Shown here piece after piece: positions 1 through 41,554 of a stretch of 58,787 nt of DNA. Position numbers and translations under genes: made by a program. The notes beneath the pieces were generated by a model. The model ran no database searches, was not told where the DNA came from, and worked only from the letters and a program-made list of their open reading frames with translations. Location of the stretch: NCBI GenBank assembly GCA_019163175.1, contig JAFLKN010000040.1, forward strand, positions 1 to 58,787, read 5' to 3'. Each line of letters opens with the position of its first letter. Position 1 is the first letter of the stretch. Origin of the DNA: Prolixibacteraceae bacterium. GTDB taxonomy: Bacteria > Bacteroidota > Bacteroidia > Bacteroidales > Prolixibacteraceae.

Positions 1-458
1 CACTTTTTGCTAAAAAACAAAACAGTTATACCGTGCTTGGAGCCACAATATTGTCGCTAGCCATATCACTTGGTTTTAAATTTTTATTTCCTGCAATTAC
101 CGGGAATTCGCTGTCAAGAGCTACTGAGATGGTGGTGGGAGTGCTTGTTCCGGTATCAATTATTGTCCTTTTCGAGATTTGGTTACGCCTGAAAAATAGT
201 CCTGCCACTGAGTATGAAAATTACCAGCACTACTTATCTGTAAAGGCCTCACACGAACTGGACACACCTGATACAACCGGATCATCGGCAGATGAAAATA
301 AATTTGGGAAACGCATGATTGCCATCGGAATTTTAGCCACCGGATTAATTATTTGCGTTTTAGGAATATTGGCAGCCAACGGAAAAGTCTACGTTTTAGG
401 CATGTCTTTTCTTTTGCTACTGATTGGATTACGAATACTATTCAAAACACTCAAATAG
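1..458 (+). CDS. C-terminal end of a membrane protein, possibly a sodium:solute symporter (5' end outside window)
   Basis: The reading frame is open from base 3 to the stop at 456-458, so the gene begins upstream of the window; the GTG at 33 is unlikely to be the real start. The visible part has four hydrophobic segments, at about 44-102, 129-186, 315-378 and 384-456. A charged polar loop with several acidic residues lies between the second and third. A run of C-terminal helices with a polar loop before the last two fits the end of an SSS-family (sodium:solute symporter) transporter, which often sits beside Bacteroidota sugar loci. That assignment is inference; no diagnostic motif is left in this fragment. 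The next gene starts 16 bases later. Confidence 0.45.
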   Translation, partial: LFAKKQNSYTVLGATILSLAISLGFKFLFPAITGNSLSRATEMVVGVLVPVSIIVLFEIWLRLKNSPATEYENYQHYLSVKASHELDTPDTTGSSADENKFGKRMIAIGILATGLIICVLGILAANGKVYVLGMSFLLLLIGLRILFKTLK

Positions 459-474
459 AATAACTTATATATTT

Positions 475-2754: not shown

Positions 2755-2781
2755 TCTTCCTAAATTTAACTTTTAAAAACT

Positions 2782-15503: not shown

Positions 15504-17867
15504 ATGAATAAACCTTTATTATTAATATTTTGGTGTATCCTGCTGATTTGTAATTTATTTGCACAAAATAATCCTCCTGTTCTTCCGGGTGAACTCAACC
15601 TTCAACCCATGCTTCAGCCCATCCCAATGACCGCAAAATTCATCAACGACACTTCCTACATCTGGTGTGGAACATTGGTCAAGTCGCACATCGACCAGAA
15701 ATACCATCTTTTTTATTCGCGTTGGCCCCGTCAATATGGAATGGCTGCCTGGGTAACCAAATCAGAAGTGGCCCACGCTGTTTCCGATTCGCCCTTTGGT
15801 CCTTTTGCGTTCAGAGATATCGCTTTGCCGGTTCGCGGAGCCAACTATTGGGATGGAATGGTGACCCACAATCCCACCGTCCATTTTTATAATGGAAAAT
15901 ATTACCTCTATTACACCGGAAATTATGGAGACGGCAAAATTACCGGCTCCCAGCTCAACTTTACCCATCGCAACCATCAACGCATTGGCGTTGCCGTGGC
16001 TGACAATCCCAACGGTCCATGGAAACGGTTTGACAAACCGATTATCGATGTGTCGAAAGATACTACTGCTGCGGATGCCCAAATGATGGCCAATCCATCG
16101 GTAACCCAAATGCCGGATGGCAGATATCTGATGGTCTACAAAGCCGTAGCCAGGAAACGGCCACAACCTTTCGGTGGTCCGGTGGTCCACTTGACAGCCA
16201 TTGCAGACAAGCCGGAAGGTCCGTTTGTCAAACAATACAAACCTATCTTCACAGCCGAAAATGTGGATTTTCCCGCCGAGGATCCTTTTGTCTGGTTCCA
16301 GGATAACTGCTATTACGCGATCGTCAAGGACATGAAAGGCTCTTTTACCAATGTAGGTCGAAGCCTGGTTCTGTTTTATTCGTTGGATGGATTGGATTGG
16401 AAATTGGCCAAACATCCGCTGGTATCTGATTTAAATATCAAGTGGGCCGATGGTACCACTAAAAAACTGGAAGCGCTTGAACGTCCGCAGCTCTTTTTCG
16501 AGGATGGGAAACTGGTGGCCTTGCTTTGTGCTGTCAATGAAACACAGGGCCATTCTTACAATGTGCAGATTCCTTTAAAGTTGAAACAGGAAATCGCAGC
16601 CACTGCTGCTGATTTACAGGCCCAAGCCTTAAAACAGGATCAGCAAAAAGCAGGATACAGTAACAGTCATCCCCAGACCCAATGGTTTCCTGAAGCCGGA
16701 CTTGGATTGTTTATTCACTGGGGAATGGCTTCAGTCAGTGCATCGGGTGATTTATCCTGGTGCATGCTGGCCAACAAACCCTGGAAAGATGCCACCATCA
16801 CTCCAAATGAATATTATGCTCAGGTCAAACGATGGAATCCGGATAAAGTGGACTACAACGCAATGTTGAAAAATGCTAAAGCTGCGGGTGTAACCTATGC
16901 GGTGATGGTGACCAAACACCATGACGCATTTACCTTATGGCCGTCGGCATATGGTGATATGGGGACAAAGCAATATTTTGGCGGCCGCGATTTTGTGAAA
17001 GAATTTGTCACCGCCTGTAGGAAAAACAATATCAGGGTCGGGCTTTACTACTCACCCCCTGACTGGTGGTTCGAACGCAATTATAAAAGTTTTTCATACA
17101 AGGGTCCTGCACTTGATATGGATCATAAACCTGTTGTATTACCTGATAAACCTGCCGATTATGAGCAGAAACGAAAAGAGCATGTACAGAAACAGGTTCG
17201 CGAACTCTTAACCAACTATGGAAAAATTGACCTTATTTGGTTTGATGGTGGGAAAGGGGAAATTTCTAACGAGGAAGTGCGCCGGCTTCAGCCGGGGATT
17301 GTGGTTAACCGGCGGAATGGTGGTGCCGGCGATTATGGCGACTCTGAAGGAAAATTACCTGAAAGCCGGTTTCCAGGATGGTTCGAGACCTGCGAAACCT
17401 GCTGGCCTTCGAATAAATGGTCATATACTGAAGATTTCGGTTGGGATACCGCTCCACAGGTGATTGCCGAACTTGTAAAACTTCGTGCCTGGGGCGGTAA
17501 CCTGTTGGCCAATGTTGGTCCGAAAGCCGATGGTTCAGTTCCTGAACAAGCGCTAACTGCGTGGAAAGAAATGGCTGCCTGGATGAAGTACAATAGGGAA
17601 TCTGTGATTGGAACCACCGGAGGTCCCTGGCCTGAGAAGGTCAACGTGCCTGTAACTATGAAAAAGGGGGTTGCTTACCTTCATTTTCTTCCCGGAATGA
17701 ACGAAGAACTGGTATGGAAAGATGCTCCCGAACCTGCAAAGGTTTTCCTGCTGAGAAACAATAAGCCGGTTACTTTCAGCTATCAGAACGGTACACTAAA
17801 AATAAAGCTGACGATAGACCAACGGTCAAATAATGATGATGTGATCAAGTTGATTATCAAAAACTGA
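15504..17867 (+). CDS. Fusion: five-bladed-propeller glycosidase domain plus GH29 alpha-L-fucosidase
   Basis: A 787-residue secreted protein (signal peptide ending FAQ near residue 21). Residues about 25-357 form a GH43/GH117-like five-bladed propeller with repeated blade motifs (THNPTVHFYNGKYYLYYTG, AEDPFVWFQDNCYYAI, ERPQLFFEDGKLVALL). A polar Ala/Gln/Lys-rich linker fills about 358-390. Residues 392-787 are a GH29 alpha-L-fucosidase: LGLFIHWG, TKHHDAF, then IDLIWFDGG with the presumed nucleophile Asp581, and NLLANVGP. The propeller half is very similar to the stand-alone protein at 31829, whose end (VQIPLKQP) falls where the linker starts here. The GH29 half has no signal peptide of its own, consistent with gene fusion. 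The propeller's substrate is unknown. Confidence 0.85.
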   Translation: MNKPLLLIFWCILLICNLFAQNNPPVLPGELNLQPMLQPIPMTAKFINDTSYIWCGTLVKSHIDQKYHLFYSRWPRQYGMAAWVTKSEVAHAVSDSPFGPFAFRDIALPVRGANYWDGMVTHNPTVHFYNGKYYLYYTGNYGDGKITGSQLNFTHRNHQRIGVAVADNPNGPWKRFDKPIIDVSKDTTAADAQMMANPSVTQMPDGRYLMVYKAVARKRPQPFGGPVVHLTAIADKPEGPFVKQYKPIFTAENVDFPAEDPFVWFQDNCYYAIVKDMKGSFTNVGRSLVLFYSLDGLDWKLAKHPLVSDLNIKWADGTTKKLEALERPQLFFEDGKLVALLCAVNETQGHSYNVQIPLKLKQEIAATAADLQAQALKQDQQKAGYSNSHPQTQWFPEAGLGLFIHWGMASVSASGDLSWCMLANKPWKDATITPNEYYAQVKRWNPDKVDYNAMLKNAKAAGVTYAVMVTKHHDAFTLWPSAYGDMGTKQYFGGRDFVKEFVTACRKNNIRVGLYYSPPDWWFERNYKSFSYKGPALDMDHKPVVLPDKPADYEQKRKEHVQKQVRELLTNYGKIDLIWFDGGKGEISNEEVRRLQPGIVVNRRNGGAGDYGDSEGKLPESRFPGWFETCETCWPSNKWSYTEDFGWDTAPQVIAELVKLRAWGGNLLANVGPKADGSVPEQALTAWKEMAAWMKYNRESVIGTTGGPWPEKVNVPVTMKKGVAYLHFLPGMNEELVWKDAPEPAKVFLLRNNKPVTFSYQNGTLKIKLTIDQRSNNDDVIKLIIKN

Positions 17868-20900: not shown

Positions 20901-21687
20901 TAAATATAAAGGTGTTGGCAGGACTTATTTTATTTTGGAACAGAAAGCTTCGGATAAGAAACTTGTAAAAAAGGTTCCTCTGGCAACCGATTGGTACCTG
21001 AATCCTAACGTGCTTTCATTTAATTGCAATCCACAGCAAAAGGGTCAATTTGGCTGGTATCGTTTTGAAGCGCCTCCAGGTGCACAGGTGATGTATATTC
21101 CCGCTGTTTCGAAACCAGAAGTTTGGGTAGCAGGAGAAAAAGTGAGATGCCAGGCCGGAAAATTACAGACAGTCAGATTGGCCGACCCAAGTCTGCCGAT
21201 ATGGAAAATCGACTTTCCAAAGGGGGAAAAGGAGTCGGCAGTAGTTGCTGTGAGGCTGGAACAAACTGCCGGTTTATTTGGCGGAGCAGCCATTCCCGAG
21301 CCTATTGTTTTTGAATGTGGAAAAGGAACGATTCAGTTGGAAGATCTCCGTGATAACAAATCACTGCAAACCTATTCCGGTGGAATGTGGTATCGCAAAA
21401 CAATCACGATTACCACTGAGCAAATAAAATCTAAGCATATCTTGCTAGATCTGGGAAAAGTGGTGGCTTCGGCAGAAGTATCTGTAAATGGTAAATCTGT
21501 TGGGGCACGAATTGCTTCACCATGGAGATTTGATCTTTCAGATAAAGTAAAAGCCGGAGAAAATCGTATTGAGGTTCTGGTTTATAATACCCTTGGTAAT
21601 CATTACCTGAATACACCGTCCCAATACGTCGGTCGGATAAATTCAGGTTTGATCGGGCCGGTTACGCTTGAGTTCCATTCAAAATAA
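17998..21687 (+). CDS. Large GH106-like secreted glycoside hydrolase (putative alpha-L-rhamnosidase)
   Basis: I place the start at ATG 17998 (1229 residues) because MKHKFGLFLIISTMFLSLNA is a clean signal peptide; the earlier ATG 17944 lies in a tandem repeat. The mature protein opens with the GH106-type pattern: a residue group around FFWWVGDTLT, then WEMDQLKGRGITGLQVNY, a WKLFGWFLKEAKKRDM helix and VSLSDYT. A central region holds LEGFHSSEWG and GHNLLSLHGLYYT, and the C-terminal part is beta-sandwich with VSVNGKSVGARIASPWRFDL and GRINSGLIGPVTLEF. GH106 enzymes of this length cleave alpha-L-rhamnosides in pectins. The match is by pattern memory; a related uncharacterised family is the main alternative. 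GH78 rhamnosidases follow directly. Confidence 0.65.
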   Translation: MKHKFGLFLIISTMFLSLNAQNTPKLPPGFPDHSPDLDVLPGFKTPPKGYGEVSFFWWVGDTLTHDRLIWEMDQLKGRGITGLQVNYCHTDKGGALTYSSQPALFSPKWWKLFGWFLKEAKKRDMSVSLSDYTLGKAGQGWFVDEMLKENQNYGSKLEIRQFDVKDNANFKTPMSEEVLTAIAYPNVNGTLSSSVSIDLKSNIKNEELAWKAPSGDWKIIVIYRKTVKTSFDPMNPLSGRKVIEKFYQRFEDHCPGESGKGLNFFFSDELQFGIKGFLWNDQFASEFNKRKGYDILPELPNLFADIGPRSYKIRLDYNDVMVSLSEEGFFKPIYEWHTKRGMLFGCDHGGRGRDVTEFGDYFRTQRWMSGPGCDQPRLLRDVVKNKVASSIAHLYERPRTWLEGFHSSEWGTSSEEVADATFANFAMGHNLLSLHGLYYTTHGSWWEWAAPDNHFRQPYWANMGDFLKCSERLSYLLSQGYHRCDVAMVYPVAPVEANLKGTVSVNTAFDIARDIYPAGIDFDFMDFESLDRCQIRDKELNVSGEKYKVLVLPAMSAVRYSTIEKALDFYRSGGIVIAVGALPEASDRIGGNDQKIQAMISEMFGITSADEQDTTKTYSRKSASGGTGIFIHNPLEVKKIVASLIQPDFKVLSGNQTSNILHRKVGDRDLYFVYGLPKGTKCFFRCSGKVEIWNSWTGEVKSLKVSAVSETGTTITLPLEKNEPQLIVFSPGKPEIETATSMNEKTEELVIDNKWEFELKPTLDNKFGDYRLPAFDGKLGVEVWKMKFAPETGANFDWQKSEFDDSKWADASVSFGQQFWKLGPFSADVDLSGLEDNLQTIKLVDASQPVELNGKKYFWQPYEFSWHWGLKDDAGHQGYHGLKGEINNELFSFGIINRPSKLMPVYPLVAEPEGTVYYLWSAVVSPLQQQVEIKKGGLLPVSVWVNQKGVELKKQEVGLQTGTNPVLLKYKGVGRTYFILEQKASDKKLVKKVPLATDWYLNPNVLSFNCNPQQKGQFGWYRFEAPPGAQVMYIPAVSKPEVWVAGEKVRCQAGKLQTVRLADPSLPIWKIDFPKGEKESAVVAVRLEQTAGLFGGAAIPEPIVFECGKGTIQLEDLRDNKSLQTYSGGMWYRKTITITTEQIKSKHILLDLGKVVASAEVSVNGKSVGARIASPWRFDLSDKVKAGENRIEVLVYNTLGNHYLNTPSQYVGRINSGLIGPVTLEFHSK

Positions 21688-21709
21688 TAATAAATTGATT
21701 CTAAGCGAT

Positions 21710-24679
21710 ATGAAATGCATTAACAAACTAACATTCCTAACATTTGCCGTTCTGCTGCTAACGTCGCTGGCCGCGCTTCAAGCCGCCGGTCCGGCGAACC
21801 TGCGCTGCGAGTTTCGCGTGAATCCTCTTGGCATTGACGCATCGCGACCCCGGCTTAGTTGGGTAATCGAATCGAAAGATAAAGGGTTGCTCCAGACGGC
21901 CTATCAGGTTGTAGTAGATGGAGTCTGGGATACAGGAAAAGTACTATCGGATCAATCGCAGAACGTTGAGTATGGTGGCAAGTCGCTCGTTTCCGGCACG
22001 CGCTACAATTGGAAAGTCCGGGTGTGGGACAATTCCGGAAAAGTTTCCGGTTGGAGTAAACCTGCAATGTGGACTATGGGGCTGATGAAGCCAGAAGACT
22101 GGACGGCGCGATGGATCAGCACGGAGATGGAGGAACAGGTGGCTCCCCCGAAAGCTGGTGGAAATTTGAAAATTCTCAAGGCGACCTATATCGTTCGCGA
22201 TGGGTCGGGATCGTCCGATGTGACAGGGAAGATTTCCTCTTTGGTAAAAGATGGCGTTTTGAACTTTAGAGTTTCATCCATTATACTCAGCGGGGATTCG
22301 GCAATGAAATATCTGAAGAATCTTGTGGTCGAGTATGAACTAGATGGCAATCGAGGCACCACCAGTGCATTAGAATCTGAACGGATGGTCATTCCCACGC
22401 CCCCCGCGTCACAACCAAAACCCTTAGACGAGCCTTTTGTCAGGAGGGAATTTGATCTTGCAGCAGTCCCTACAACCGCCCTGGCGACAGTCAATGTGAT
22501 GGGATTCTATGAGCTGTATGTGAATGGGAAAAAGGTGGGTCCGAATGTGATGGGACCGGCACTTTCGGACTACCAAAAGCGTTCGCTGTACGAAACCTAC
22601 GACCTCACGCCCTACCTGCAGAAAGGCCGCAACTGCATAGGGCTGTGGCTCAGTCGGGGCTGGTATTTGAAAACAAAGATCGACCGCAATCCCAACCCCT
22701 CTGTACAGCATAATACAGCGATTGCCCGGATGCAGCTCGATTTGATCGTGGACGGCCTCCCACAGCGGATTGCCACAGACGGCAAATGGCGCTGCAAATC
22801 AAGCGGACGTAGCCTGATTGGCCCATGGAGTTGGAATAAAATGGGCGGGGAGCTGGTGGATGCGCGCCAGGACGACCCTCGCTGGTCCGATCCAGAAGTA
22901 ACTAACGGTGATTGGTATCCGGTCAAAGAGGTTACTGCCCGTGCGATTCCAGCCGATGCCCAGAAATGTCCGCCCATGCGCGTACTGAAAACCATACCGG
23001 CGATTTCCTGCACCAAACTTGCTGACGGAAAATATCGGCTGGATTTCGGAACCGAACTTACTGGTTGGTTCAAGCTGCGCATGCGTGGACAGGCTGCCGG
23101 TGACACCATCACCATCCAATACGCCGACAAGCTCGAGCGGCTGCAAACCTACAATCAGATGGACCGTTTTATTTGCGCGGGCAAGCATATGGATGAATTT
23201 TGTTCTAAGTTCAACTACCACGGGTTTCATTGGGCAATCATCGAAGGACTTTCAGAGGCACCGGAACTTGCGGATGCCGAGGCGCAGTCAATCGGTACCG
23301 ACTTTGAAACGAGGGGTGGCTTTGAATGTTCCAGCGAACAACTCAACCGCATGCACGCAGTGAACCTGTGGACCATTCAGTGCCTTAGCCAAAGTGGATA
23401 CTTGTCGGACTGTCCACATCGTGAACGGCTGGGATACGGTGACGGTCAGGTTTCCATAGAGAGCTGTATGATGAATTTCATGATGCATCCATTTTATGAT
23501 AAATGGTCCACCGATTGGTGTGACTTAGCAAATCCTACTACTGGCTATATACCTCACACCGCTCCGCAAGGAATTGGCGGTGGTGGTCCTGGTTGGGGCG
23601 GCGCTGCGCAAGCCCTTACCTGGCGGAACTATCTCTATTATCAGGATACGCTGATTCTGAGGCGTAACCTCGAAGCCTGTCAACGTCATATTGCGGCAAT
23701 TGAAGCCCATGCAAAGGATGGCATAGTCCGAAACTTAGGTGGGACGGGAGCAGGTTTCGTCGGCGACTGGGTTGCGCCCGGGCGTGGAATGGATACCATA
23801 AACCGACCTCCAGCAGATGCGGCAGCGTTGTTTAATAATTGTTACCTGATCTATCTGCGCGAGCAATGGGCGCAAATGGCCGATGTACTCGGGTGGCATG
23901 ATGAAGCGAAAGCCTGCCGTGCAGAAACTGAGTGCCTTCGGCCTCTGATCCACGCAGCTTTCTATAACAAAGACAAACAACTCTACGCTCTTGACGAACA
24001 ATCCTATTACCTGATGCCGCTCATGACCGGCGTCGTGCCGGAAGAACTGCGTGCAACTATTCAGAACAAACTGGAGGAATGCATCCAGGTCACGCGCAAG
24101 GGGCACCTTGATACGGGAATGCTTGGAACCTATTTCCTGATGAATTATCTCATGGAAATTGGGCGCAACGATCTTTTGTGGTTAATGGTTACCCAGAAGG
24201 ACTACCCCGGCTGGGGATACATGCTTGAGCAGGGTGCCACCACCTGGTGGGAGCAGTGGAATGGCTATTGGTCTCAGATTCATTCGTGCTTCACATCTTT
24301 GGACGGTTGGTTTTATCAAGGTTTGGCCGGAATTCGTCCAGACAAATCGGACCCCGGATTCAAGAAGATCATCATAAAACCCGCTGTGGTTGGCGACCTG
24401 ACATGGGTGAAATGTTATCACGACTCCCCCTACGGTCGCATAGTCAGCAACTGGAAACTCGAGGGTCAGAAGTTGACAATGGAAGTAACAATTCCCGCCA
24501 ACACGACTGCCACTGTCTATGTCCCGGCCAACGATGCTACCGGAGTGACCGAGTCAGGCAAACTCGCCGCCAAGGCAGTTGACGTTAAATTCCTGCGTAT
24601 GGAAAACAACACTGCTGTCTATGCTGTCGGTTCAGGATCTTACCAGTTTCAATCCGATTTGCCAGAAGCCGTCAAATAA
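21710..24679 (+). CDS. GH78 alpha-L-rhamnosidase, copy 1, with extra N-terminal module
   Basis: Start ATG 21710 (989 residues) is chosen because the signal peptide (MKCINKLTFLTFAVLLLTSL) begins there; an upstream in-frame ATG at 21668 overlaps the preceding gene. Domain order: an Fn3-like Bac_rhamnosid_N region with DASRPRLSWVIES, jelly-roll domains (VNVMGFYELYVNGKKVGPN), an (alpha/alpha)6 catalytic barrel and a C-terminal beta domain. The catalytic acidic motif is SDCPHRERLGYGDGQ with Asp567 and Glu572. Compared with copy 2 it has about 85 extra residues, at roughly 145-230, containing KILKATYIVRDG and KNLVVEYELDGN. Base composition is clearly richer in G+C than the flanking genes. It should release terminal alpha-L-rhamnose in the periplasm or outside the cell. 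Confidence 0.92.
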   Translation: MKCINKLTFLTFAVLLLTSLAALQAAGPANLRCEFRVNPLGIDASRPRLSWVIESKDKGLLQTAYQVVVDGVWDTGKVLSDQSQNVEYGGKSLVSGTRYNWKVRVWDNSGKVSGWSKPAMWTMGLMKPEDWTARWISTEMEEQVAPPKAGGNLKILKATYIVRDGSGSSDVTGKISSLVKDGVLNFRVSSIILSGDSAMKYLKNLVVEYELDGNRGTTSALESERMVIPTPPASQPKPLDEPFVRREFDLAAVPTTALATVNVMGFYELYVNGKKVGPNVMGPALSDYQKRSLYETYDLTPYLQKGRNCIGLWLSRGWYLKTKIDRNPNPSVQHNTAIARMQLDLIVDGLPQRIATDGKWRCKSSGRSLIGPWSWNKMGGELVDARQDDPRWSDPEVTNGDWYPVKEVTARAIPADAQKCPPMRVLKTIPAISCTKLADGKYRLDFGTELTGWFKLRMRGQAAGDTITIQYADKLERLQTYNQMDRFICAGKHMDEFCSKFNYHGFHWAIIEGLSEAPELADAEAQSIGTDFETRGGFECSSEQLNRMHAVNLWTIQCLSQSGYLSDCPHRERLGYGDGQVSIESCMMNFMMHPFYDKWSTDWCDLANPTTGYIPHTAPQGIGGGGPGWGGAAQALTWRNYLYYQDTLILRRNLEACQRHIAAIEAHAKDGIVRNLGGTGAGFVGDWVAPGRGMDTINRPPADAAALFNNCYLIYLREQWAQMADVLGWHDEAKACRAETECLRPLIHAAFYNKDKQLYALDEQSYYLMPLMTGVVPEELRATIQNKLEECIQVTRKGHLDTGMLGTYFLMNYLMEIGRNDLLWLMVTQKDYPGWGYMLEQGATTWWEQWNGYWSQIHSCFTSLDGWFYQGLAGIRPDKSDPGFKKIIIKPAVVGDLTWVKCYHDSPYGRIVSNWKLEGQKLTMEVTIPANTTATVYVPANDATGVTESGKLAAKAVDVKFLRMENNTAVYAVGSGSYQFQSDLPEAVK
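23967..24459. repeat. 493-bp tract identical to 26704-27196 (GH78 copy 1 side)
   Basis: Read against copy 2, this stretch shows no difference over 493 bases, bounded by A/G at 23966 and C/T at 24460. The parts of the genes on either side differ at many silent and non-silent sites. It encodes the end of the catalytic barrel and the start of the C-terminal domain. Such a sharply bounded identical tract in otherwise diverged tandem genes is typical of gene conversion. Confidence 0.85.
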
Positions 24680-24698
24680 AGCACAAAAGAAAAGCGAT

Positions 24699-27431
24699 AT
24701 GCTACATATTAATAAACTAACATTCCTAACATTGGCCGTTCTGCTGCTAACGTCGTTGGCCGCGCTTCAAGCTGCCGGTCCGGCGAATCTACGCTGCGAG
24801 TTCCGTGTGAATCCGCTTGGCATTGACGCATCCCGACCCCGGCTTAGTTGGGTAATCGAATCGAAAGATAAAGGGGTGCTCCAGACGGCCTATCAGGTTG
24901 TAGTCGATGGAGTCTGGGATTCCGGGAAAGTCCCTTCCGATAAATCGCAGAATATTGAATATGGCGGCAAGCCGCTCGTTTCCGGCACGCGCTATGATTG
25001 GAAAGTTCGCCTGTGGGACAATTCGGGTAAAGTTTCGGGGTGGAGCAAACCAGCGTGGTGGATCATGGGAATGCTGAAACCGGAAGATTGGACGGCACAA
25101 TGGATCAGCACGGAGATGGAGGAACAAGCCGTTCCCACGCCCCCCGCGTCACAGCCGAAACCCCTCGATGAGCCTTATGTCAGGCGGGAATTCGATCTTG
25201 CAGCTATCCCCACATCTGCTCTGGCGACTGTCAATGTGATGGGATTCTATGAGCTGTATGTGAATGGAAAGAAAGTAGGGACCAATGTGATGGGACCCGC
25301 TCTTTCGAACTATGGTAAACGTTCACTCTACGAAACCTACGACCTCACGCCCTACCTGCAGAAAGGCCGTAACTGCATTGGGATGTGGCTCAGCCGGGGT
25401 TGGTATTGGAAAGTGCTCGACGGTCGGCCTAACCCCAACGTGCAACACGAAACCGCGATTGCCCGGATGCAGCTCGATTTGATCGTGGACGGCCACCTGC
25501 AGCGGATTGCCACGGACGGTGAATGGCGCTGCAAATCAAGCGGACGTAGCCTGCTTGGCCCATGGAGTTGGAACAAAATGGGCGGGGAGCTGGTGGATGC
25601 ACGCCAGGACGACCCCCATTGGGCAGATCCTGACGCAACTTACGGCGATTGGTATCCTGTCAAAGAGGCTGCTGCCCTTTCGATTCCGGCCGATGCCCAG
25701 AAATGTCCGCCTATGCGCATACTGAAAACCATACCGGCGATTTCCTGCACCAAACTCGCTGACGGAAAATATCAGCTGGATTTCGGAACCGAACTTACCG
25801 GTTGGCTCAAGCTACGTGTACGCGGGCAGGAGGCAGGCGACACCATCACCATCCAATACGCCGACAAGCTTGATCGTTTGCAGACATACAATCAAATGGA
25901 CCGTTTCATTTGCGGGGGCAAGTCAGGAGAAGAGTTTTGTTCTAAGTTCAACTACCATGGATTCCGTTGGGCAATCGTGGAAGGACTTATCACAGCACCG
26001 GAGCTTGCGGATGCCGGGGCGGAGTTGATAGGCACTGACTTTGAAACGCGCGGTGGTTTTGAATGTTCCAGCGAACAACTCAACCGCATGCACGCAGTGA
26101 ACCTGTGGACCATTCAGTGTCTGAGCCAAAGCGGATATTTATCGGACTGTCCGCATCGCGAACGCCTGGGTTACGGTGACGGTCAGGTGTCAATTGAAAG
26201 CTGCATGATGAATTTCATGATGCAGCCATTTTACGGCAAATGGTCCACCGACTGGTTTGATGGGGCTGACCCCGATACTGGCTACATGCCTCACACCGCA
26301 CCGCAATACAAGAGTGGCGGCGGTGGTCCGGCGTGGGGTGGGGCGGGCCAGGCCCTGACCTGGAGGAACTACCTCTATTATCAGGACTCGAGGATTGTGG
26401 AGCGGAATCTTGATGCCTGCCGCCGTCACATCGAGGCCATTGAAACCCACGCGAAAGACGGCGTCGTCCGTGCCTTTGGTGGGCAATGGGATTTCATCGG
26501 CGACTGGGTTCCACCAGGGCGCGGATTGGATACTAAAAACTGGCCGCCCCAATCCGCGGCGGAGTTGTTTAATAACTGTTATCGGCTATATCTGCGCGAG
26601 CAATGGGCGCAAATGGCCGATGTACTCGGGCGGCATGACGAAGCGAAAGCCTGCCGTGCAGAAACGGAGCGCCTTCGGCCTTTGATCCACGCAGCTTTCT
26701 ATGACAAAGACAAACAACTCTACGCTCTTGACGAACAATCCTATTACCTGATGCCGCTCATGACCGGCGTCGTGCCGGAAGAACTGCGTGCAACTATTCA
26801 GAACAAACTGGAGGAATGCATCCAGGTCACGCGCAAGGGGCACCTTGATACGGGAATGCTTGGAACCTATTTCCTGATGAATTATCTCATGGAAATTGGG
26901 CGCAACGATCTTTTGTGGTTAATGGTTACCCAGAAGGACTACCCCGGCTGGGGATACATGCTTGAGCAGGGTGCCACCACCTGGTGGGAGCAGTGGAATG
27001 GCTATTGGTCTCAGATTCATTCGTGCTTCACATCTTTGGACGGTTGGTTTTATCAAGGTTTGGCCGGAATTCGTCCAGACAAATCGGACCCCGGATTCAA
27101 GAAGATCATCATAAAACCCGCTGTGGTTGGCGACCTGACATGGGTGAAATGTTATCACGACTCCCCCTACGGTCGCATAGTCAGCAACTGGAAACTTGAG
27201 GGTCAGAAGTTGACAATGGAAGTCACCATTCCCGCCAATACGACTGCCACCGTCTATGTTCCTGCGGAGGAGCCAGCAGGGGTTACCGAATCCGGAAAGC
27301 CGGTCAATAAAGCGAAAGGTCTCAAATTGCTGCGTATGGAGAACGGCGCCGCCGTCTATGCCGTCGGTTCGGGAACCTATAGATTTGAGTCCCCATTGCG
27401 TTCAACTCAAGGTAATACTATACACCAATGA
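24699..27431 (+). CDS. GH78 alpha-L-rhamnosidase, copy 2
   Basis: Start ATG 24699 (910 residues) matches the signal peptide MLHINKLTFLTLAVLLLTSL; the open frame continues upstream into the copy-1 coding region and is not real there. Same domain order as copy 1 (RLSWVIES, VNVMGFYELYVNGKKVGTN, catalytic SDCPHRERLGYGDGQ with Asp483 and Glu488, barrel, C-terminal beta domain). The ~85-residue module between STEMEEQ and PTPPASQPKPLDEP is missing. The tail is different from copy 1 (ends RSTQGNTIHQ). Its TGA stop overlaps the ATG of the GH106 remnant at 27428 (ATGA), showing an operon junction in the source DNA. Like copy 1 it is G+C-rich relative to its neighbours. Confidence 0.92.
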   Translation: MLHINKLTFLTLAVLLLTSLAALQAAGPANLRCEFRVNPLGIDASRPRLSWVIESKDKGVLQTAYQVVVDGVWDSGKVPSDKSQNIEYGGKPLVSGTRYDWKVRLWDNSGKVSGWSKPAWWIMGMLKPEDWTAQWISTEMEEQAVPTPPASQPKPLDEPYVRREFDLAAIPTSALATVNVMGFYELYVNGKKVGTNVMGPALSNYGKRSLYETYDLTPYLQKGRNCIGMWLSRGWYWKVLDGRPNPNVQHETAIARMQLDLIVDGHLQRIATDGEWRCKSSGRSLLGPWSWNKMGGELVDARQDDPHWADPDATYGDWYPVKEAAALSIPADAQKCPPMRILKTIPAISCTKLADGKYQLDFGTELTGWLKLRVRGQEAGDTITIQYADKLDRLQTYNQMDRFICGGKSGEEFCSKFNYHGFRWAIVEGLITAPELADAGAELIGTDFETRGGFECSSEQLNRMHAVNLWTIQCLSQSGYLSDCPHRERLGYGDGQVSIESCMMNFMMQPFYGKWSTDWFDGADPDTGYMPHTAPQYKSGGGGPAWGGAGQALTWRNYLYYQDSRIVERNLDACRRHIEAIETHAKDGVVRAFGGQWDFIGDWVPPGRGLDTKNWPPQSAAELFNNCYRLYLREQWAQMADVLGRHDEAKACRAETERLRPLIHAAFYDKDKQLYALDEQSYYLMPLMTGVVPEELRATIQNKLEECIQVTRKGHLDTGMLGTYFLMNYLMEIGRNDLLWLMVTQKDYPGWGYMLEQGATTWWEQWNGYWSQIHSCFTSLDGWFYQGLAGIRPDKSDPGFKKIIIKPAVVGDLTWVKCYHDSPYGRIVSNWKLEGQKLTMEVTIPANTTATVYVPAEEPAGVTESGKPVNKAKGLKLLRMENGAAVYAVGSGTYRFESPLRSTQGNTIHQ
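26704..27196. repeat. 493-bp tract identical to 23967-24459 (GH78 copy 2 side)
   Basis: Partner of the identical tract in copy 1, at a spacing of 2737 bases. Identity stops at G26703/A and T27197/C. A direct repeat this long could also recombine and delete one GH78 gene. Confidence 0.85.
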
Positions 27432-27760
27432 AATTGTTTTCAAATGCTGTGATTCACACCAACGAATTGATGATCAATGGCATTTCACAAAATAAATACC
27501 ATATTTATAAGAGATATTTCTTCACAGTGATGGCAGGGTGCATGTGCTGGTTCTTCGCGGCAGCACAGAGCGGAGACCAACTCGTCGATGGCTTTCGGAA
27601 TCCGCCCAATTCTGCGAAGCCTTGGACCTACTGGTTTTGGATCAACGGGAACATTACCCGCGAAAGCATCAAGGCGGATCTGGAGGCGATGGCGCGGGTT
27701 GGCATACATGGCGTGTTGATCATGGAGGTGGCGAAACCGAATCAACCGAATACATTTTGA
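27428..27760 (+). pseudogene. 5' fragment of a GH106-type alpha-L-rhamnosidase gene, cut at the 27742 junction
   Basis: The frame starts at ATG 27428, overlapping the GH78 stop, and encodes a hydrophobic leader and then the GH106 N-terminal pattern: DGFRNPPNSAKPWTYWFWIN, GNITRESIKADLEAM and RVGIHGVLIMEV. At about 27741 the sequence switches to FAD-oxidoreductase DNA in another frame and the ORF stops at 27758-27760. Only ~105 of the usual ~1000 or more codons remain, so it cannot make an enzyme. The G+C-rich style matches the two GH78 genes before it, so the fragment arrived or evolved with them. Confidence 0.8.
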
Positions 27761-29577
27761 GTGCTCCTTTATTTTGCGATGCTTCGGGTGATGGAATTGT
27801 TGGATTTAAAGCTGGTGCTTCATTCCGTATGGGAGCTGAAAACAAATCTGAATTTGGCGAAGGATTTACTCCAACCGCTGAATATGGCGAACTTTTGGGC
27901 CACACCATGTATTTCTACAGCAAAGATGCCGGTAAACCGATAAAATACATTGCACCTTCGTTTGCAATAAAGGATATTACCAAAATTCCTAAATTCAGAA
28001 ATATTAAAACCGGTCAAATGGGCTGTAATTTCTGGTGGTTCGAGTTTGGAGGCAGAGGCGATACCATTCACGATACCGAAGAAATTAAATGGGAACTCTG
28101 GAGTGTGATTTACGGAGTTTGGGATTACATTAAAAACTCTGGTAATTTTCCTGAATCTGAAAATCTGACACTCGAATGGGTTGGCACCATACCAGGCAAG
28201 CGCGAAAGCCGCCGTTTCGAAGGCTCTTATATGCTGAAGCAGCAGGATGTCGTTGAACAAACTCATTTTTACGATGCGGTTTCGTATGGTGGTTGGGCTA
28301 TTGATCTACATCCGGCCGATGGTGTTTTTTCCGAACTTCCAAGCTGCAATCAGTATCATTCGAAAGGAATTTACGAAATTCCATACCGCTGTTTTATCAG
28401 CAAAGACATTAAAAACCTGTTCATTGCCGGACGGTTGATAAGCGCTTCGCATGTAGCTTTTGGTTCGACCCGGGTTATGGCTACAGCTGGTCACGGAGGC
28501 CAGGTAATTGGAATGGCTGCAGCTTTGTGTTGTAAATCAGAACTTAATCCTTCTGATTTTATAGATGTTGATAACATCAGAGTTCTTCAGGACAAACTGA
28601 ATGTTGCAGGCCAAAGTATTCCGGGACTGTCGATTGATCAACGTAAAAATCTGGCTGCTTGCGCAAATGTTGAAACTTCAAGCGAGCTGATCGTTGATCT
28701 GCTCCCGTTTGATGGCGACTGGTTTGATTTAGAAACAGCCGCGGGTCAGTTGTTACCACTAAAAAAGGATGTTCAATACAGTTTTGAGGTTTCAGTTGAT
28801 GCCTTTTCGGCAACGGTTTTGGAGGTGGAATTGCAGATTAGTTCCAAAGTATTTAATTACACTCCTGATGTTTTGCTTGAAAAGTTAAGCTTCAATTTGA
28901 TAACGGGAGTTCAAACGGTAAAGGTTCAATTTACAGCTGCATTAAAAGAAGATCAGTATGCCTTTTTGATTTTCAGGCAAAATCCTGATGTGAAGATATG
29001 TTGCAGCGAGAAACGTATTTCCGGTATTGTTTCGGTTTTTAATAAAACCAATCCTGCAGTAAATAACTACGGTAAACAAACCCCTCCTGAAAACAGCGGC
29101 TTCGATTCGTTTGAGTTCTGGTGTCCAGATCGCCGTCCGAAAGGTCAGAATCTGGCGATGATCATTTCTCCAGCTTTGACTTGTTATTCCGCAGAGAATA
29201 TAACAAACGGTTTTACCCGTCCTTACCTGAGTGCAAATGCCTGGGCAGCCGATTGGAGTGACCATAATCCAACATTAACTCTAAAATGGGACGAGCCGAA
29301 AAACATTCATTCGGTAACTCTTTTCCTTGATACTGATTTCGATCACCCAATGGAATCTTCTCAAATGGGGCATCCCGAAGATATCATTCCATTTTGTATT
29401 CAGAATTACAGGATCTGGGACGAGAACGGAATTCTTCTTTTCGAAAAGTCAGACAATCATCAGACGATTAATCGATGGGTTCCTGAAAATGTAGTTGAGA
29501 CCAAACTTTTAACCTTTGAATTTGAACATCCGAATTCGAATGTACCTGCATCAATTTTTGAAATATATATTGATTAA
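27742..29577 (+). pseudogene. Truncated second copy of the FAD-dependent oxidoreductase (lacks the FAD-binding N-terminus)
   Basis: Bases 27742-29577 align without a single gap to 919-2754 of the complete gene (both 1836 bases), at roughly 85-90% identity by eye. The first 148 codons, including the GGGMAG dinucleotide-binding loop, are missing and replaced by the GH106 fragment. The reading frame is still open for all 611 codons and even extends upstream to an ATG at 27538 through unrelated DNA read in a foreign frame. A chimeric protein is possible but would lack FAD binding. Absence of stops or frameshifts suggests that the truncation is recent, that the domain is still used, or that the contig is misjoined here. 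A terminator follows at 29615. Confidence 0.82.
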
Positions 29578-29614
29578 TCATCTTCATTTTAGATTTAGGT
29601 AATTGTTTGAGGTG

Positions 29615-29657
29615 ACCTGGGGGCTGGTTTTTCGGATCAGCCCCTGAGGTTTTTTTT
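29615..29657 (+). terminator. Rho-independent terminator after the truncated oxidoreductase
   Basis: A G+C-rich stem (GGGGGCTG against CAGCCCC, extended by CCT/AGG with a one-base offset) is followed by eight T residues at 29650-29657. It lies 38 bases after the stop at 29577 and is the clearest intrinsic terminator in the window. It separates the upstream genes from the GH97-led block. Confidence 0.85.
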
Positions 29658-29892
29658 GTAATAAAACTTAAATTTAAGCGAATGATAAAAACGAATTGGT
29701 ATTATTCCTGTTTACGACTAATTCTATAGGGTAGTATGCCTTAATTTTTTAGTCTGTTTTTGCATAGTCACCATCGGCAGCTTAGGTATTTGTTTTACGA
29801 AGATCATTTTGAGCAATATCGGTGAGATAATCAAGTATTTGAAATAGATTTGCGATTACAAAAAAACTGATAACCCTAAATCATTGATTACG
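29658..29892 (+). promoter_or_regulatory. Gap before GH97 with a possible Bacteroidota -7 box
   Basis: AT-rich 235-base gap downstream of the terminator. TAGATTTG at 29845-29852 matches the Bacteroidota -7 consensus TAnnTTTG and lies 41 bases before the chosen ATG. No TTG at the expected -33 spacing is present; the nearest, at 29809, is too far. The position after a terminator makes a promoter likely, but this box is weak evidence. I see nothing else in the gap. Confidence 0.4.
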
Positions 29893-31812
29893 ATGAAAAA
29901 TAACCTTCTAGCAACTCTACTAATTTTCTTGTTGATTTCATTTCAAAATCTAAATGCAGAGGAAATCAAGGCTCTGCGCTCGCCAAACGGAAATCTTGAA
30001 GTTGTAATTCAACTTTCGAAGGAAAGTGAACTGACTTATTCATTTAAAGCTGAAAAAAAAGTTCTTATTGATAATTCTCCGCTGGGATATGCGATTGAGA
30101 ACAAACGTATCTTACCTTCTGAAGGTTGGAAATTAGAGAATCTAAAGCAAAATTCAGTAAGTTCAGAATGGAAGCCTGTTTGGGGCAAGCGTGCGTTGGT
30201 GCCCGAAAAATACAATGAGTTCATTCTCGATTTGCAAGGTACCGATACTTCTGTCCTTCATTCATTGCGGCTCGAAGTCCGGGCTTATAATGATGGGGTT
30301 GCATTTCGCTACTCCATTCCTTCCGGCGAAAAGAATACCGCAATAGCATCTGCTGAGTTAACAAATTTCAATTTTGCCAACGATTATACGGCATGGTTTT
30401 ATAACGGTGAAAATGCAAATATTGGCCCAGAAAAGCTTTCGGAAACCAACGGAAAGAGGTTTCCTGTGATGACAATCATGGCCGATAAAGACAATTTCCT
30501 TGCCATTCACGAAGCCGATCTTACAACAGGCGATCCATTGGTTCTTGAGTCGAAATTAAATAGTACCATTTTTTCTGTGCTTTCGGTTCCGGGTAAGCTC
30601 GAAGCCGGATTTCACTCGGCATGGCGGGTAATCCTCTACGGAAAAACACCCGGCGCTTTGGTCGATTCACATTTAATCGAATTGTTAAATCCTCCGGCTG
30701 AAGACGATTATTCTTGGGTGAAGCCTGGCGTCGCAGTTTGGGATTGGCGGATAGACGGAGCACAGGTTGATGGGTTTACCTATAAAATGAATTACCCGTC
30801 GTGGGTTCGGATGGTTGACTTCGCTGCCGAAAATAACATTCGTTATCTCGTTCTCGATGCAAACTGGTATGGCCCTGAACACGAGTCAGAATCTGATCCG
30901 GTAAAAGGAGATAAAGCCAGTGATGTTCGGCGATTGCTTCAGTATGGAAAAGAAAAAGGTGTTGGAATTTGGCTCTACCTGAACGATGTGGGTGGTCGGA
31001 AATTCCCGATTGAGCAAACATTGAAACAATACGGTGACTGGGGAGCTGCAGGTATCAAATATGGATTTATGAAAGGTACTCCGGCTGAAAAAAATGCGTG
31101 GACACGAAAAATTACTGAACTTTGTGCTCAAAATCATCTGCTTTGCGATTTCCACGACGGCCCGGTACATCCTTACGGGCAAATGCGCACTTTCCCCAAT
31201 GCCGTAACCCGTGAGTTCTGTCATGCCCAGCTCGATGCGCACCGTGTTTTTGTTCCCTCCACTTTTGTCACCTCAGTTTTTGTAAATATGGTGGCCGGTC
31301 CAATAGATATGAACAACGGAATGTTCGACCTTCGCCAAGGAAAAACGACCCGGGTCGATGAAAATCAACCGGTTCCGTCAACACTGGTTTCGGAGGCAGC
31401 ACGCACACTGATTGTCTTTTCGGGCGCCACCATCATCCCCGACATTCCAGAATACTACAAAAAATACCCCGATTTACTCCGGTTTATTGCAGCCCAAAAA
31501 ATGCCTTGGCACGAAAGTAAAACGCTCGGTGGCGAAATTGGGAAATACATTATTATGGCACGTCAGGCATCCGATAATACCTGGCTTGTTGGCGCTGCTA
31601 CAAACGAAGATTCACGGGAACTTGATATTCCGTTGAGTTTCCTGAAATCCGGAAAATTTGAAGTGACAATTATTCAGGATGGCGAGATTGCCCATTACCT
31701 TACCAATAGGGAAGTGATGAAAGTTCAAAAACAGATTCTAAAATCGAAAGATAAAGTTCGTGTGAAACTTGCAGCAGGTGGAGGCGCTTGTTTAATAATT
31801 AAACCAATATAA
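29893..31812 (+). CDS. GH97-family glycoside hydrolase with non-standard catalytic residues
   Basis: ATG 29893 (639 residues) is preferred to the TTG at 29884; the signal peptide is MKNNLLATLLIFLLISFQNL. The layout is that of GH97: N-terminal super-sandwich (SPNGNLEVVIQLS, YNDGVAFRY), a catalytic (beta/alpha)8 barrel (WDWRIDGAQ, YLVLDANWYG), and a C-terminal sheet. GH97 enzymes are alpha-glucosidases or alpha-galactosidases needing calcium. In retaining members, as I recall, the nucleophile is an Asp in a K-x-D-F strand motif; here the equivalent strand reads GIKYGFM with Gly391. The following TREFCHAQLD has Leu447 where many members have Glu. It may use other residues or have a new activity. 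It is the first gene after the terminator. Confidence 0.85.
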   Translation: MKNNLLATLLIFLLISFQNLNAEEIKALRSPNGNLEVVIQLSKESELTYSFKAEKKVLIDNSPLGYAIENKRILPSEGWKLENLKQNSVSSEWKPVWGKRALVPEKYNEFILDLQGTDTSVLHSLRLEVRAYNDGVAFRYSIPSGEKNTAIASAELTNFNFANDYTAWFYNGENANIGPEKLSETNGKRFPVMTIMADKDNFLAIHEADLTTGDPLVLESKLNSTIFSVLSVPGKLEAGFHSAWRVILYGKTPGALVDSHLIELLNPPAEDDYSWVKPGVAVWDWRIDGAQVDGFTYKMNYPSWVRMVDFAAENNIRYLVLDANWYGPEHESESDPVKGDKASDVRRLLQYGKEKGVGIWLYLNDVGGRKFPIEQTLKQYGDWGAAGIKYGFMKGTPAEKNAWTRKITELCAQNHLLCDFHDGPVHPYGQMRTFPNAVTREFCHAQLDAHRVFVPSTFVTSVFVNMVAGPIDMNNGMFDLRQGKTTRVDENQPVPSTLVSEAARTLIVFSGATIIPDIPEYYKKYPDLLRFIAAQKMPWHESKTLGGEIGKYIIMARQASDNTWLVGAATNEDSRELDIPLSFLKSGKFEVTIIQDGEIAHYLTNREVMKVQKQILKSKDKVRVKLAAGGGACLIIKPI

Positions 31813-31828
31813 CGCAAAATTTTTACGA

Positions 31829-32911
31829 ATGAAAAATATACCCATTGTCATAGTTTTAGTTGTTTTCGGATTTATTTCCTGCGCACAGAAAAAGAATGTC
31901 GTTCCTGCCGGAGAATTGGATATTCAATCCATGATTCAGCCCATTCCGGCAACGGCAAAATTCATTAACGACACTTCTTATATCTGGTGCGGGACGCTGG
32001 TCAAGTCGCACATCGACCTGAAATACCACCTATTTTATTCCCGATGGCCAAGAAAATACGGAATGTCGGCCTGGGTAACCAGTTCAGAGGTGGCTCATGC
32101 CGTTTCCGATTCACCTTTCGGTCCGTTTCAGTTTAAAGATGTTACATTGCCACATCGTGGTGCTGAATACTGGGATGGAATGTACACCCACAATCCGACG
32201 GTTCATTTCTTCAATGGTAAATATTACCTGTACTATGCCGGAAATTTTGGCGATGGCAAAATAACCAGTCCGCAACTCAACTGGACACATCGCAACAACC
32301 AGCGCATCGGGGTTGCCATTGCCGACGATCCCAATGGTCCATGGAAACGGTTTGATCAGCCAATCATCGATATTTCTCAGGATACTTCGGCCCACGATGC
32401 ACAAATGGTGGCCAATCCTTCGGTTACCCAAATGCCCGATGGTCGTTTTCTGATGGTTTACAAGGCAGTTGCCCGTAAAAAACCACAGCCTTTTGGTGGT
32501 CCGGTGGTTCATCTTACGGCTATTGCTGACAAACCTGATGGCCCCTTCGTCAAACAAAACAAACCGATTTTTACTGCTGAAAATGTGGACTTTCCTGCAG
32601 AAGACCCGTTTGTGTGGTATCAGGACAATTGTTATTATGCGATAGTTAAAGACATGAAAGGCGCCTTTACCAGTGCCGGTCGCAGTCTGGTGCTTTTTTA
32701 TTCGCCCGATGGTCTGGATTGGAAACTGGCCAAACATCCGTTGGTTTCTACTTTGAATATAAAAATGGCCGATGGTTCAATTAAAAAGCTGGAAGCACTG
32801 GAAAGGCCGCAATTGTTCTTTGAAAATGGTAAACTGGTCGCCTTACTTTGTGCTGTCAACGAAACACAGGGGCATTCGTATAATGTGCAGATACCGCTGA
32901 AGCAACCCTGA
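31829..32911 (+). CDS. Stand-alone five-bladed-propeller glycosidase-like lipoprotein
   Basis: A 360-residue protein with lipobox GFISC (cysteine near residue 19), so probably membrane-anchored. It consists of one GH43/GH117-like five-bladed propeller: TAKFINDTSYIWCGTLVKSH, THNPTVHFFNGKYYLYYAG, AEDPFVWYQDNCYYAI, ERPQLFFENGKLVALL. It is about 85% identical by eye to the N-terminal half of the fusion protein at 15504, but stops at VQIPLKQP without a GH29 domain. The order AEDPF resembles the conserved acidic positions of the clan, but I cannot assign catalytic residues. Substrate unknown. The gene follows GH97 by 16 bases. Confidence 0.8.
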   Translation: MKNIPIVIVLVVFGFISCAQKKNVVPAGELDIQSMIQPIPATAKFINDTSYIWCGTLVKSHIDLKYHLFYSRWPRKYGMSAWVTSSEVAHAVSDSPFGPFQFKDVTLPHRGAEYWDGMYTHNPTVHFFNGKYYLYYAGNFGDGKITSPQLNWTHRNNQRIGVAIADDPNGPWKRFDQPIIDISQDTSAHDAQMVANPSVTQMPDGRFLMVYKAVARKKPQPFGGPVVHLTAIADKPDGPFVKQNKPIFTAENVDFPAEDPFVWYQDNCYYAIVKDMKGAFTSAGRSLVLFYSPDGLDWKLAKHPLVSTLNIKMADGSIKKLEALERPQLFFENGKLVALLCAVNETQGHSYNVQIPLKQP

Positions 32912-40369: not shown

Positions 40370-41425
40370 ATGAAACTACAATCAATCATTACAATTTGCT
40401 TTGGAATCACCCTCCTGATGTGGTCCTGCAACAGCGAAAAAGTGGTAAAACATACTCCTGCCAATCAAAAAACCGAAGCAATTGCAGAATGGGAAAGCCT
40501 TCGTTTTGGCGCATTTGTTCATTTTAACGACAACACTTGTTTGGTTCGTGAATTTTCAAAAAACACCGACCCTGCTGTGTTTAATCCTGTCAATCTCGAT
40601 TTCGATTCAATGATGACTACTTTTCAGGAAGCGGGCGTAAAATATGCGGTGCTGACTACCCGCCACACTTCCGGATTTAGCCTGTGGGACAGCAAATTAA
40701 CGAAGTTTGATGTGGCCGAAAGTCCGTTCAAGAAAGATGTGGTCAGATTGTTTGTGGATGCCTGCCGTAAACACAACATCAAACCTTGTTTGTACTATTG
40801 CTTGTGGGGCAGCAAAGACTGGAACCCGGTCAGCTGGAACCCAACGATTAAAACTGAATTGGAGACTACCACGCCAAAGCAAATCATTCTTTCGCAATTG
40901 GCAGAGCTGGCTGAAAACTATGGCGACATTTATGCCTTTTGGCTCGACATGCAGTGCTGGGCTGATACTACGCTTTCGCCACAGGAATCATACGATTTAC
41001 TGAAAAGCAAAAATCCCAAAACTTTTGTCCATTTCAATCAGCATGTTCAGGATGGAAGCAAAGTCAGATATTTCCCAACCGATATCATCAACGGAGAAGA
41101 ACGCACTCCGCCGGTTGCAGGCCACAATCCCAACCGGGAAATCGACGGTCAAAATTATTACCTGCCTTTTGAATATGAAATTACCTCGCAGCGCTGCGAT
41201 TCACTTTCACTCGGCAATGGCCTGATGAAGGGCTCCTGCTGGTTTACGTTTCCCGTGAGCCAGTTTTATCCGGTGGACAGCCTCTATAAATACATCCAAC
41301 AAAATTTCGACCGTGGAGGTAGCAATATTCTGCTTTCGACTGCGCCCGATAAAACCGGAACATACAGTCAGGCAAACAGCGATAGCATTATTAAGTTGGG
41401 TAAATTGATTTGGGGTAAAGAATAA
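40370..41425 (+). CDS. Divergent GH29-type alpha-L-fucosidase lipoprotein
   Basis: A 351-residue lipoprotein (lipobox LMWSC, cysteine near residue 20). The GH29 barrel landmarks are all present though changed: RFGAFVHFN instead of the usual G-x-F-x-H-W-G, YAVLTTRHTSGFSLW, and YGDIYAFWLDMQCW with Asp193 at the nucleophile position. The end NILLSTAPDKTG matches the N-LL-N-x-x-P strand. It lacks the C-terminal beta-sandwich of larger GH29 proteins (usual length 430 or more). It is the last gene before the inverted repeat at 41435 and may end that transcript. Confidence 0.75.
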   Translation: MKLQSIITICFGITLLMWSCNSEKVVKHTPANQKTEAIAEWESLRFGAFVHFNDNTCLVREFSKNTDPAVFNPVNLDFDSMMTTFQEAGVKYAVLTTRHTSGFSLWDSKLTKFDVAESPFKKDVVRLFVDACRKHNIKPCLYYCLWGSKDWNPVSWNPTIKTELETTTPKQIILSQLAELAENYGDIYAFWLDMQCWADTTLSPQESYDLLKSKNPKTFVHFNQHVQDGSKVRYFPTDIINGEERTPPVAGHNPNREIDGQNYYLPFEYEITSQRCDSLSLGNGLMKGSCWFTFPVSQFYPVDSLYKYIQQNFDRGGSNILLSTAPDKTGTYSQANSDSIIKLGKLIWGKE

Positions 41426-41434
41426 CCTGATTTT

Positions 41435-41481
41435 TCGGAAACGATTTCGGAAAATAAAAACGTTTCCGAAAACGTTTCCGG
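41435..41481. promoter_or_regulatory. 19-bp inverted repeat with AAACGTTT cores, likely regulator site
   Basis: Left arm 41435-41453 pairs with right arm 41463-41481 at 17 of 19 positions, separated by nine bases. The right side carries two AACGTTTCC blocks; AAACGTTT-type palindromes are typical of LacI-family operators. The element sits 10 bases after the GH29 stop and about 74 bases before the GH2 start, with no T-run after it, so a regulator operator fits better than a terminator. No cognate regulator gene is in the window. Confidence 0.55.
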
Positions 41482-41554
41482 TAATTCATTGCCACTATAT
41501 TTTCATACTGAAATCTCATTTTCCTACTTTTAAGCAAACTAACTATTTGCTAAC

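Follow-up and report, generated by a model that had tools for sequence, protein, structure and literature searches.

A probable deletion scar joining a GH106 gene head to a FAD oxidoreductase gene tail in a carbohydrate gene cluster of a Prolixibacteraceae bacterium

The locus and its two gene pieces

The window analysed here is an entire contig (JAFLKN010000040.1, here C36; 58,787 bases) of the 5.92-Mb assembly of a Prolixibacteraceae bacterium, which comprises 74 contigs with a completeness of 95.76% and a contamination of 2.25%. It is a carbohydrate gene cluster containing a FAD oxidoreductase, two SusC/SusD pairs and many glycoside hydrolase (GH) genes, with Pfam matches to GH2, GH16, GH29-type fucosidase, GH43, GH78, GH95, GH97 and GH106, where the GH numbers of the fucosidase and 'Bac_rhamnosid' families are those we take to apply. 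Near position 27742, the beginning of a GH106 (alpha-L-rhamnosidase-like) gene gives way to the end of a second FAD oxidoreductase gene, here called copy B. Both gene pieces, the complete FAD gene, the GH78 pair and the intergenic stretch described below lie on the forward strand.

The GH106 piece is an N-terminal fragment in an open reading frame (ORF) at 27428–27760, which ends at the TGA codon 27758–27760. Residues 58–102 align to positions 2–46 of the 743-position Pfam profile PF17132 (E = 4.6e-14; 52.3 bits against a cut-off of 29), and the remaining 697 of the 743 positions (47–743), present in GH106 alpha-L-rhamnosidases, are absent from the fragment. A genome-wide GH106 search returned 27599–27736 as the sole match at this locus. 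A sequence-only reading of this DNA had described the head as G+C-rich, which holds for its later part (GC content 0.572 in 27539–27739, against 0.412 in 27740–29577) but not for its first part (0.324 in 27428–27538); third-position GC across the head is 0.635.

Copy B consists of the last 611 codons and the stop codon of a FAD oxidoreductase (27742–29577). Its complete counterpart, copy A (424–2754), lies directly 5' of a SusC gene, matches the whole PF12831 profile (1–416 of 416) and is found in the same order before SusC in the related genomes G011, a congener, G008 and G016. The two copies align gap-free between 27742–29577 and 919–2754 (1836 versus 1836 bases), with 1568 of 1836 bases identical (85.4%), 189 of the 268 differences at third codon positions and no stop in the 611 codons of copy B, as the earlier reading had reported. 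At the protein level, copy B is 87%, 85% and 83% identical to the G011, G008 and G016 proteins, respectively. By sequence it thus resembles other PF12831 proteins encoded directly before SusC, but differs by the loss of residues 1–165 of copy A, dinucleotide-binding motif included. Its PF12831 match (211.1 bits against a cut-off of 27) begins only at profile position 128 and runs to 415, in agreement with the earlier claim that the FAD-binding loop was lost. The best match of copy A to solved flavoproteins (15 sequences) falls at residues 38–76 (37–76 at most), the GGGMAG region that is missing from copy B.

The join itself can be placed within 27731–27741 by comparison with GH106 homologues, FAD orthologues and copy A, although its left limit is soft. 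Most of the GH106 homologues examined stop matching after the IMEV codons, near 27730, while a few continue weakly, and the first FAD-homologous base is 27742, leaving about 11 bases that belong clearly to neither gene. Identity between the two copies starts abruptly there, with an identical run of 23 bases from 27742 and no matching base leftwards, and the closer FAD orthologues carry AFCSQNSTEY where copy B has GGGETESTEY. Together with the Pfam match, this confirms what had been noticed from the letters, both that the junction lies at about 27742 and that hardly any bases are shared there.

Reading frames across the join

An ORF of 679 codons crosses the join mechanically, starting at the GTG codon 27538 and ending at 29577, and the sequence-only reading had proposed that it would encode a chimeric protein if the join is real. 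However, the FAD tail lies in the frame of 27538 and the GH106 head in the frame of 27428, so that the first 67 codons of the long ORF are GH106 sequence read in another frame, and the true GH106 frame stops at 27758–27760. Because the frames differ, the locus holds two gene pieces; an in-frame GH106-FAD fusion is rejected, and ORF 27538–29577 should not be named a fused enzyme.

Searches of other genomes, with one genome per species in both the genus and the family set, agree with this division. Using ORF 27538–29577 as the query against 140 family genomes (E <= 1e-100), matches were obtained in 20, own genome included, which was matched at 2 places. Among the matches listed in the 19 other genomes there were 22 places, all starting at residue 68 or later and none covering residues 1–67, and 19 of the 22 lay in open frames of at least 762 codons. 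Within the genus, 6 of 23 genomes gave a DNA match, again counting its own. The earlier suggestion to look for the same junction elsewhere therefore yielded nothing, as no match crosses the join in the 22 other genus members, nor among the listed matches in the 139 other family members.

History of copy B

The substitution pattern of copy B looks like that of a gene that worked, under purifying selection, for most of its history. The ratio of nonsynonymous to synonymous substitution rates (dN/dS) is 0.073 between the two copies and 0.088 between the G011 and G008 genes, and spans 0.036–0.106 across the 21 pairs of A, B and five orthologues, although for many of them dS has reached saturation. 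Private codon changes, counted solely at codons where three reference sequences agree, show synonymous-to-nonsynonymous ratios of 52:12 in B, 17:2 in A, 36:8 in G011 and 32:15 in G008, and the ratio in B differs significantly from none of the others (p = 1.0 versus G011, 0.51 versus A and 0.12 versus G008). As copy B kept the pattern of a working gene, its truncation looks recent, and the loss of the head would be recent relative to the split between A and B. In a FastTree phylogeny, B groups with A and G011 (support 0.98), A pairs with G011 (0.67) and G008 falls outside; with this topology, B may have come from a sister lineage or have arisen by an old duplication.

A deletion scar and its alternatives

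Gene-remnant junctions made by deletion are a familiar outcome of genome rearrangement, and the junction at 27742 resembles them in joining the head of an upstream gene to the tail of a codirectional downstream gene, with hardly any shared sequence and without keeping the frame. No feature was found to distinguish it from these, though here each gene comes from a carbohydrate cluster, and their origins may not be the same. Both truncations can be explained by one deletion reaching from one gene into the next in the same orientation, and we consider it probable that the junction is genuine and marks such a deletion, that both pieces are pseudogenes and that no GH106-FAD protein is made. Under this scenario, a GH106 gene would have stood behind an imported-looking pair of GH78 genes, and a second FAD gene would have headed another piece of a similar SusC/SusD cluster. 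A single illegitimate recombination event, the best-fitting mechanism, would then have removed the back of the former and the front of the latter, and the out-of-frame join would have left two pseudogenes. We infer from the sequence comparisons that there was a single deletion, that it was recent, and that the pieces lack function. Ku-dependent end joining is disfavoured, as a Ku family search gave no hit in the 95.76% complete assembly, while the control for this search was positive in 1 of 14 genomes, Bacillus subtilis. Of the two origins first offered for the junction, end joining of the Ku type is thus disfavoured, and misassembly is retained as an unlikely possibility.

Such an artefact of assembly or binning would have joined unrelated pieces of the sample at 27742. 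The fragmentation of the assembly and its contamination (both given above) are compatible with this, the join occurs in no other genome searched, and two further GH106 heads in this assembly sit at a contig end or close to one (C51:2–109; C32:63382–63774 of 64099 bases). When a 191-base query across the join was searched against its own assembly, it recovered itself, copy A from exactly position 919 and two chance-level matches, one of 20 bases in C43 (E = 0.15) and the other of 26 bases in C9 (88%, E = 0.28), the latter covering query bases 99–122, the join itself. The assembly contains no second close FAD head, the next best being 31–39% identical, and at none of the 17 other GH106 match places does a body begin near profile position 47 at a contig edge, as would be expected after a simple swap; two bodies do lack a head match (C61 and C36:18490), but they lie in long frames, of 1210 and 1277 codons. 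Misassembly is therefore unlikely. These checks cover assembled contigs, and repeats confined to unassembled reads would be invisible to them; repeat-driven misassembly has little support from the 191-base query and the FAD-head and GH106-body searches but is kept as a rival. It is more improbable still that the join marks the boundary of an insertion, an imported block having entered copy B with its right end within GH106. The join does lie at the block's right edge, and the GC content of the GH78 pair (0.516 and 0.534) and of the later GH106 head exceeds that of copy B. However, the FAD head expected to the left of such an insert was found neither there nor elsewhere, and no inverted repeats flank the block: in a search for mobile-element ends, the 12 inverted-repeat pairs of at least 14 bases found in 21600–27900 all had both arms inside it.

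Least probable by far, and close to negligible in our estimate, is that the FAD tail is still translated, either from 27538 or by a restart at the TTG codon 27757, and has kept or gained a function, for example as a protein that works in the cluster without flavin. The 611 codons free of stops and gaps relative to copy A would fit such a protein, as would the overlap of TTG 27757 with the GH106 stop (TTGA), and copy B differs at 2 of 276 sites showing no variation among A and 11 orthologues. Nevertheless, the equivalent TTG codon also occurs inside the gene in copy A, so the overlap can be a coincidence, and the segment carrying copy A's similarity to solved flavoproteins is missing from B. 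If true, a new gene would have arisen from the scar, at the edge of rhamnosidase DNA imported across phyla.

Several observations weigh against the deletion scar as we have described it. The join is judged from the contigs of one assembly, of one genome of the species, and no genome was found in which the GH106 and FAD genes are both complete at this place. Our searches did not find the source GH106 gene, so a deletion is indistinguishable from an insertion ending there, and where the head came from is itself uncertain, given the AT-richness of the first 111 bases of its ORF. Copy B has 64 private changed codons versus 19 in A, and a branch length of 0.167 versus 0.073. In simulations adding random changes to A's tail (1000 runs), 41.6% of runs stayed stop-free after 20 changes and 15.9% after 40, falling to 7.1% after 60 and 0.9% after 100; some unconstrained time, of a few tens of changes, is therefore possible.

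On balance, the junction is most likely an ordinary, real-looking deletion scar beside a probable cross-phylum import. Among the titles listed in literature searches, none dealt with this junction. Taken alone it is of little importance, but it marks where DNA was rearranged next to two tandem rhamnosidase genes, the relatives of which were found mostly in metagenome-assembled genomes (MAGs) of Verrucomicrobia, in a cluster setting that also includes a gene fragment in a congener and an apparent SusC mosaic.

The GH78 pair to the left of the junction

Immediately upstream of the GH106 head are two GH78 rhamnosidase genes in tandem, at 21710–24679 and 24705–27431, the second with matches to PF17389, PF08531, PF17390, PF05592 and PF25788. 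Third-position GC is 0.555 and 0.591 in the pair, versus 0.389–0.474 in six other genes measured. The same tandem pair occurs in a Bacteroidales MAG (L023) with the isolate name Erken, which we take to be a lake; window positions 21709–27264 align with L023:6004–11560 as one collinear piece at 89.3% identity over 5564 aligned columns. A scan of species genomes, based on short peptide patterns and thus able to miss relatives, gave nine matched stretches, six of which encode a relative; besides L023, these come from three Verrucomicrobia-titled MAGs, one of Akkermansiaceae (a Verrucomicrobia family) and Millionella at 41%. In a 393-genome sample of the order, for which a small number of candidates was scored in each genome, the own genome alone gave a DNA match at E <= 1e-50, and the flanks examined at loci L056 and L067–L074 contained no GH78. 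These comparisons suggest that the pair is an import, and from them we infer transfer from Verrucomicrobia.

The GH106 head gave its best scores (85 and 80 bits) in two of the five genomes that hold L023–L027, namely the Verrucomicrobia-titled genome of L026 and the Akkermansiaceae-titled genome of L027, versus 72 in the best-scoring other genome of its own order, but as the head is so short, these scores do not decide the donor. In C32 of the same assembly, a second GH78 gene is followed by a GH106 head that ends 325 bases before the contig end, making it uninformative as a parallel case. A GH106 head in a 55-codon frame was also seen in the same order (L059/L065; G161:C53), where by eye the gene seems to continue in another frame; it is a different rearrangement, and no FAD match at E <= 1e-20 lies within the 16 kb examined at that locus.

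The right side and related rearrangements

The right side of the join is native to the genus, judging by its similarity to the congener G011, which has one FAD match at E <= 1e-100, an intact gene. Downstream GH43 and DUF5703 genes share 90% protein identity with the G011 genes that follow its FAD-SusC-SusD set. An intergenic stretch at 29589–29656, with a terminator-like hairpin at 29618–29646, is 91.2% identical over 68 bases to G011:C8:23810–23876, although hairpin patterns in 27000–30000 are no more frequent than expected by chance (3 versus 3.3). Its G011 counterpart lies after SusD, whereas in the window it stands directly after copy B; SusC and SusD were therefore likely lost beside copy B as well.

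Directly after its DUF5703 gene, G011 carries another headless gene piece (C8:29797–30054), an 86-residue match to window positions 41165–41426 that corresponds to residues 266–351, the end of the window's 351-residue fucosidase. Such fragments would fit a cluster shaped by repeated rearrangement. For gut bacteria, the carriage of SusC/SusD loci on mobile elements has been described, with 47 loci in one report (PMC6907783).

Other features of the window

Near the left end of the contig, a partial gene upstream of copy A (3–455) has no Pfam match. A DNA match of 86–89% to G011 and G008 (312–3120) spans the FAD gene and ends ~340 bases into the first SusC gene, whose protein is 32–33% identical to the G011 and G008 SusC proteins over their length; this SusC appears to be a mosaic whose N-terminus has been exchanged. 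At 15504–17867, a single open frame combines a GH43-type part in frame with an alpha-L-fucosidase part, the former sharing 79% DNA identity with the GH43 gene at 31829–32911 over ~970 bases. A genuine fusion enzyme is more plausible for this ORF than for the GH106/FAD junction. A stretch of 50–57 bases at 41429–41486, which precedes a GH2 gene, recurs with 90–93% conservation ahead of a 555-codon ORF and of a SusC gene in G011 and ahead of a 559-codon ORF in G016; it could represent a promoter or regulator site common to these genes. Finally, the GH16-type protein at 50167–51438 matches its profile in two separate segments, the second of them closely preceded by an F5/8-type domain match.

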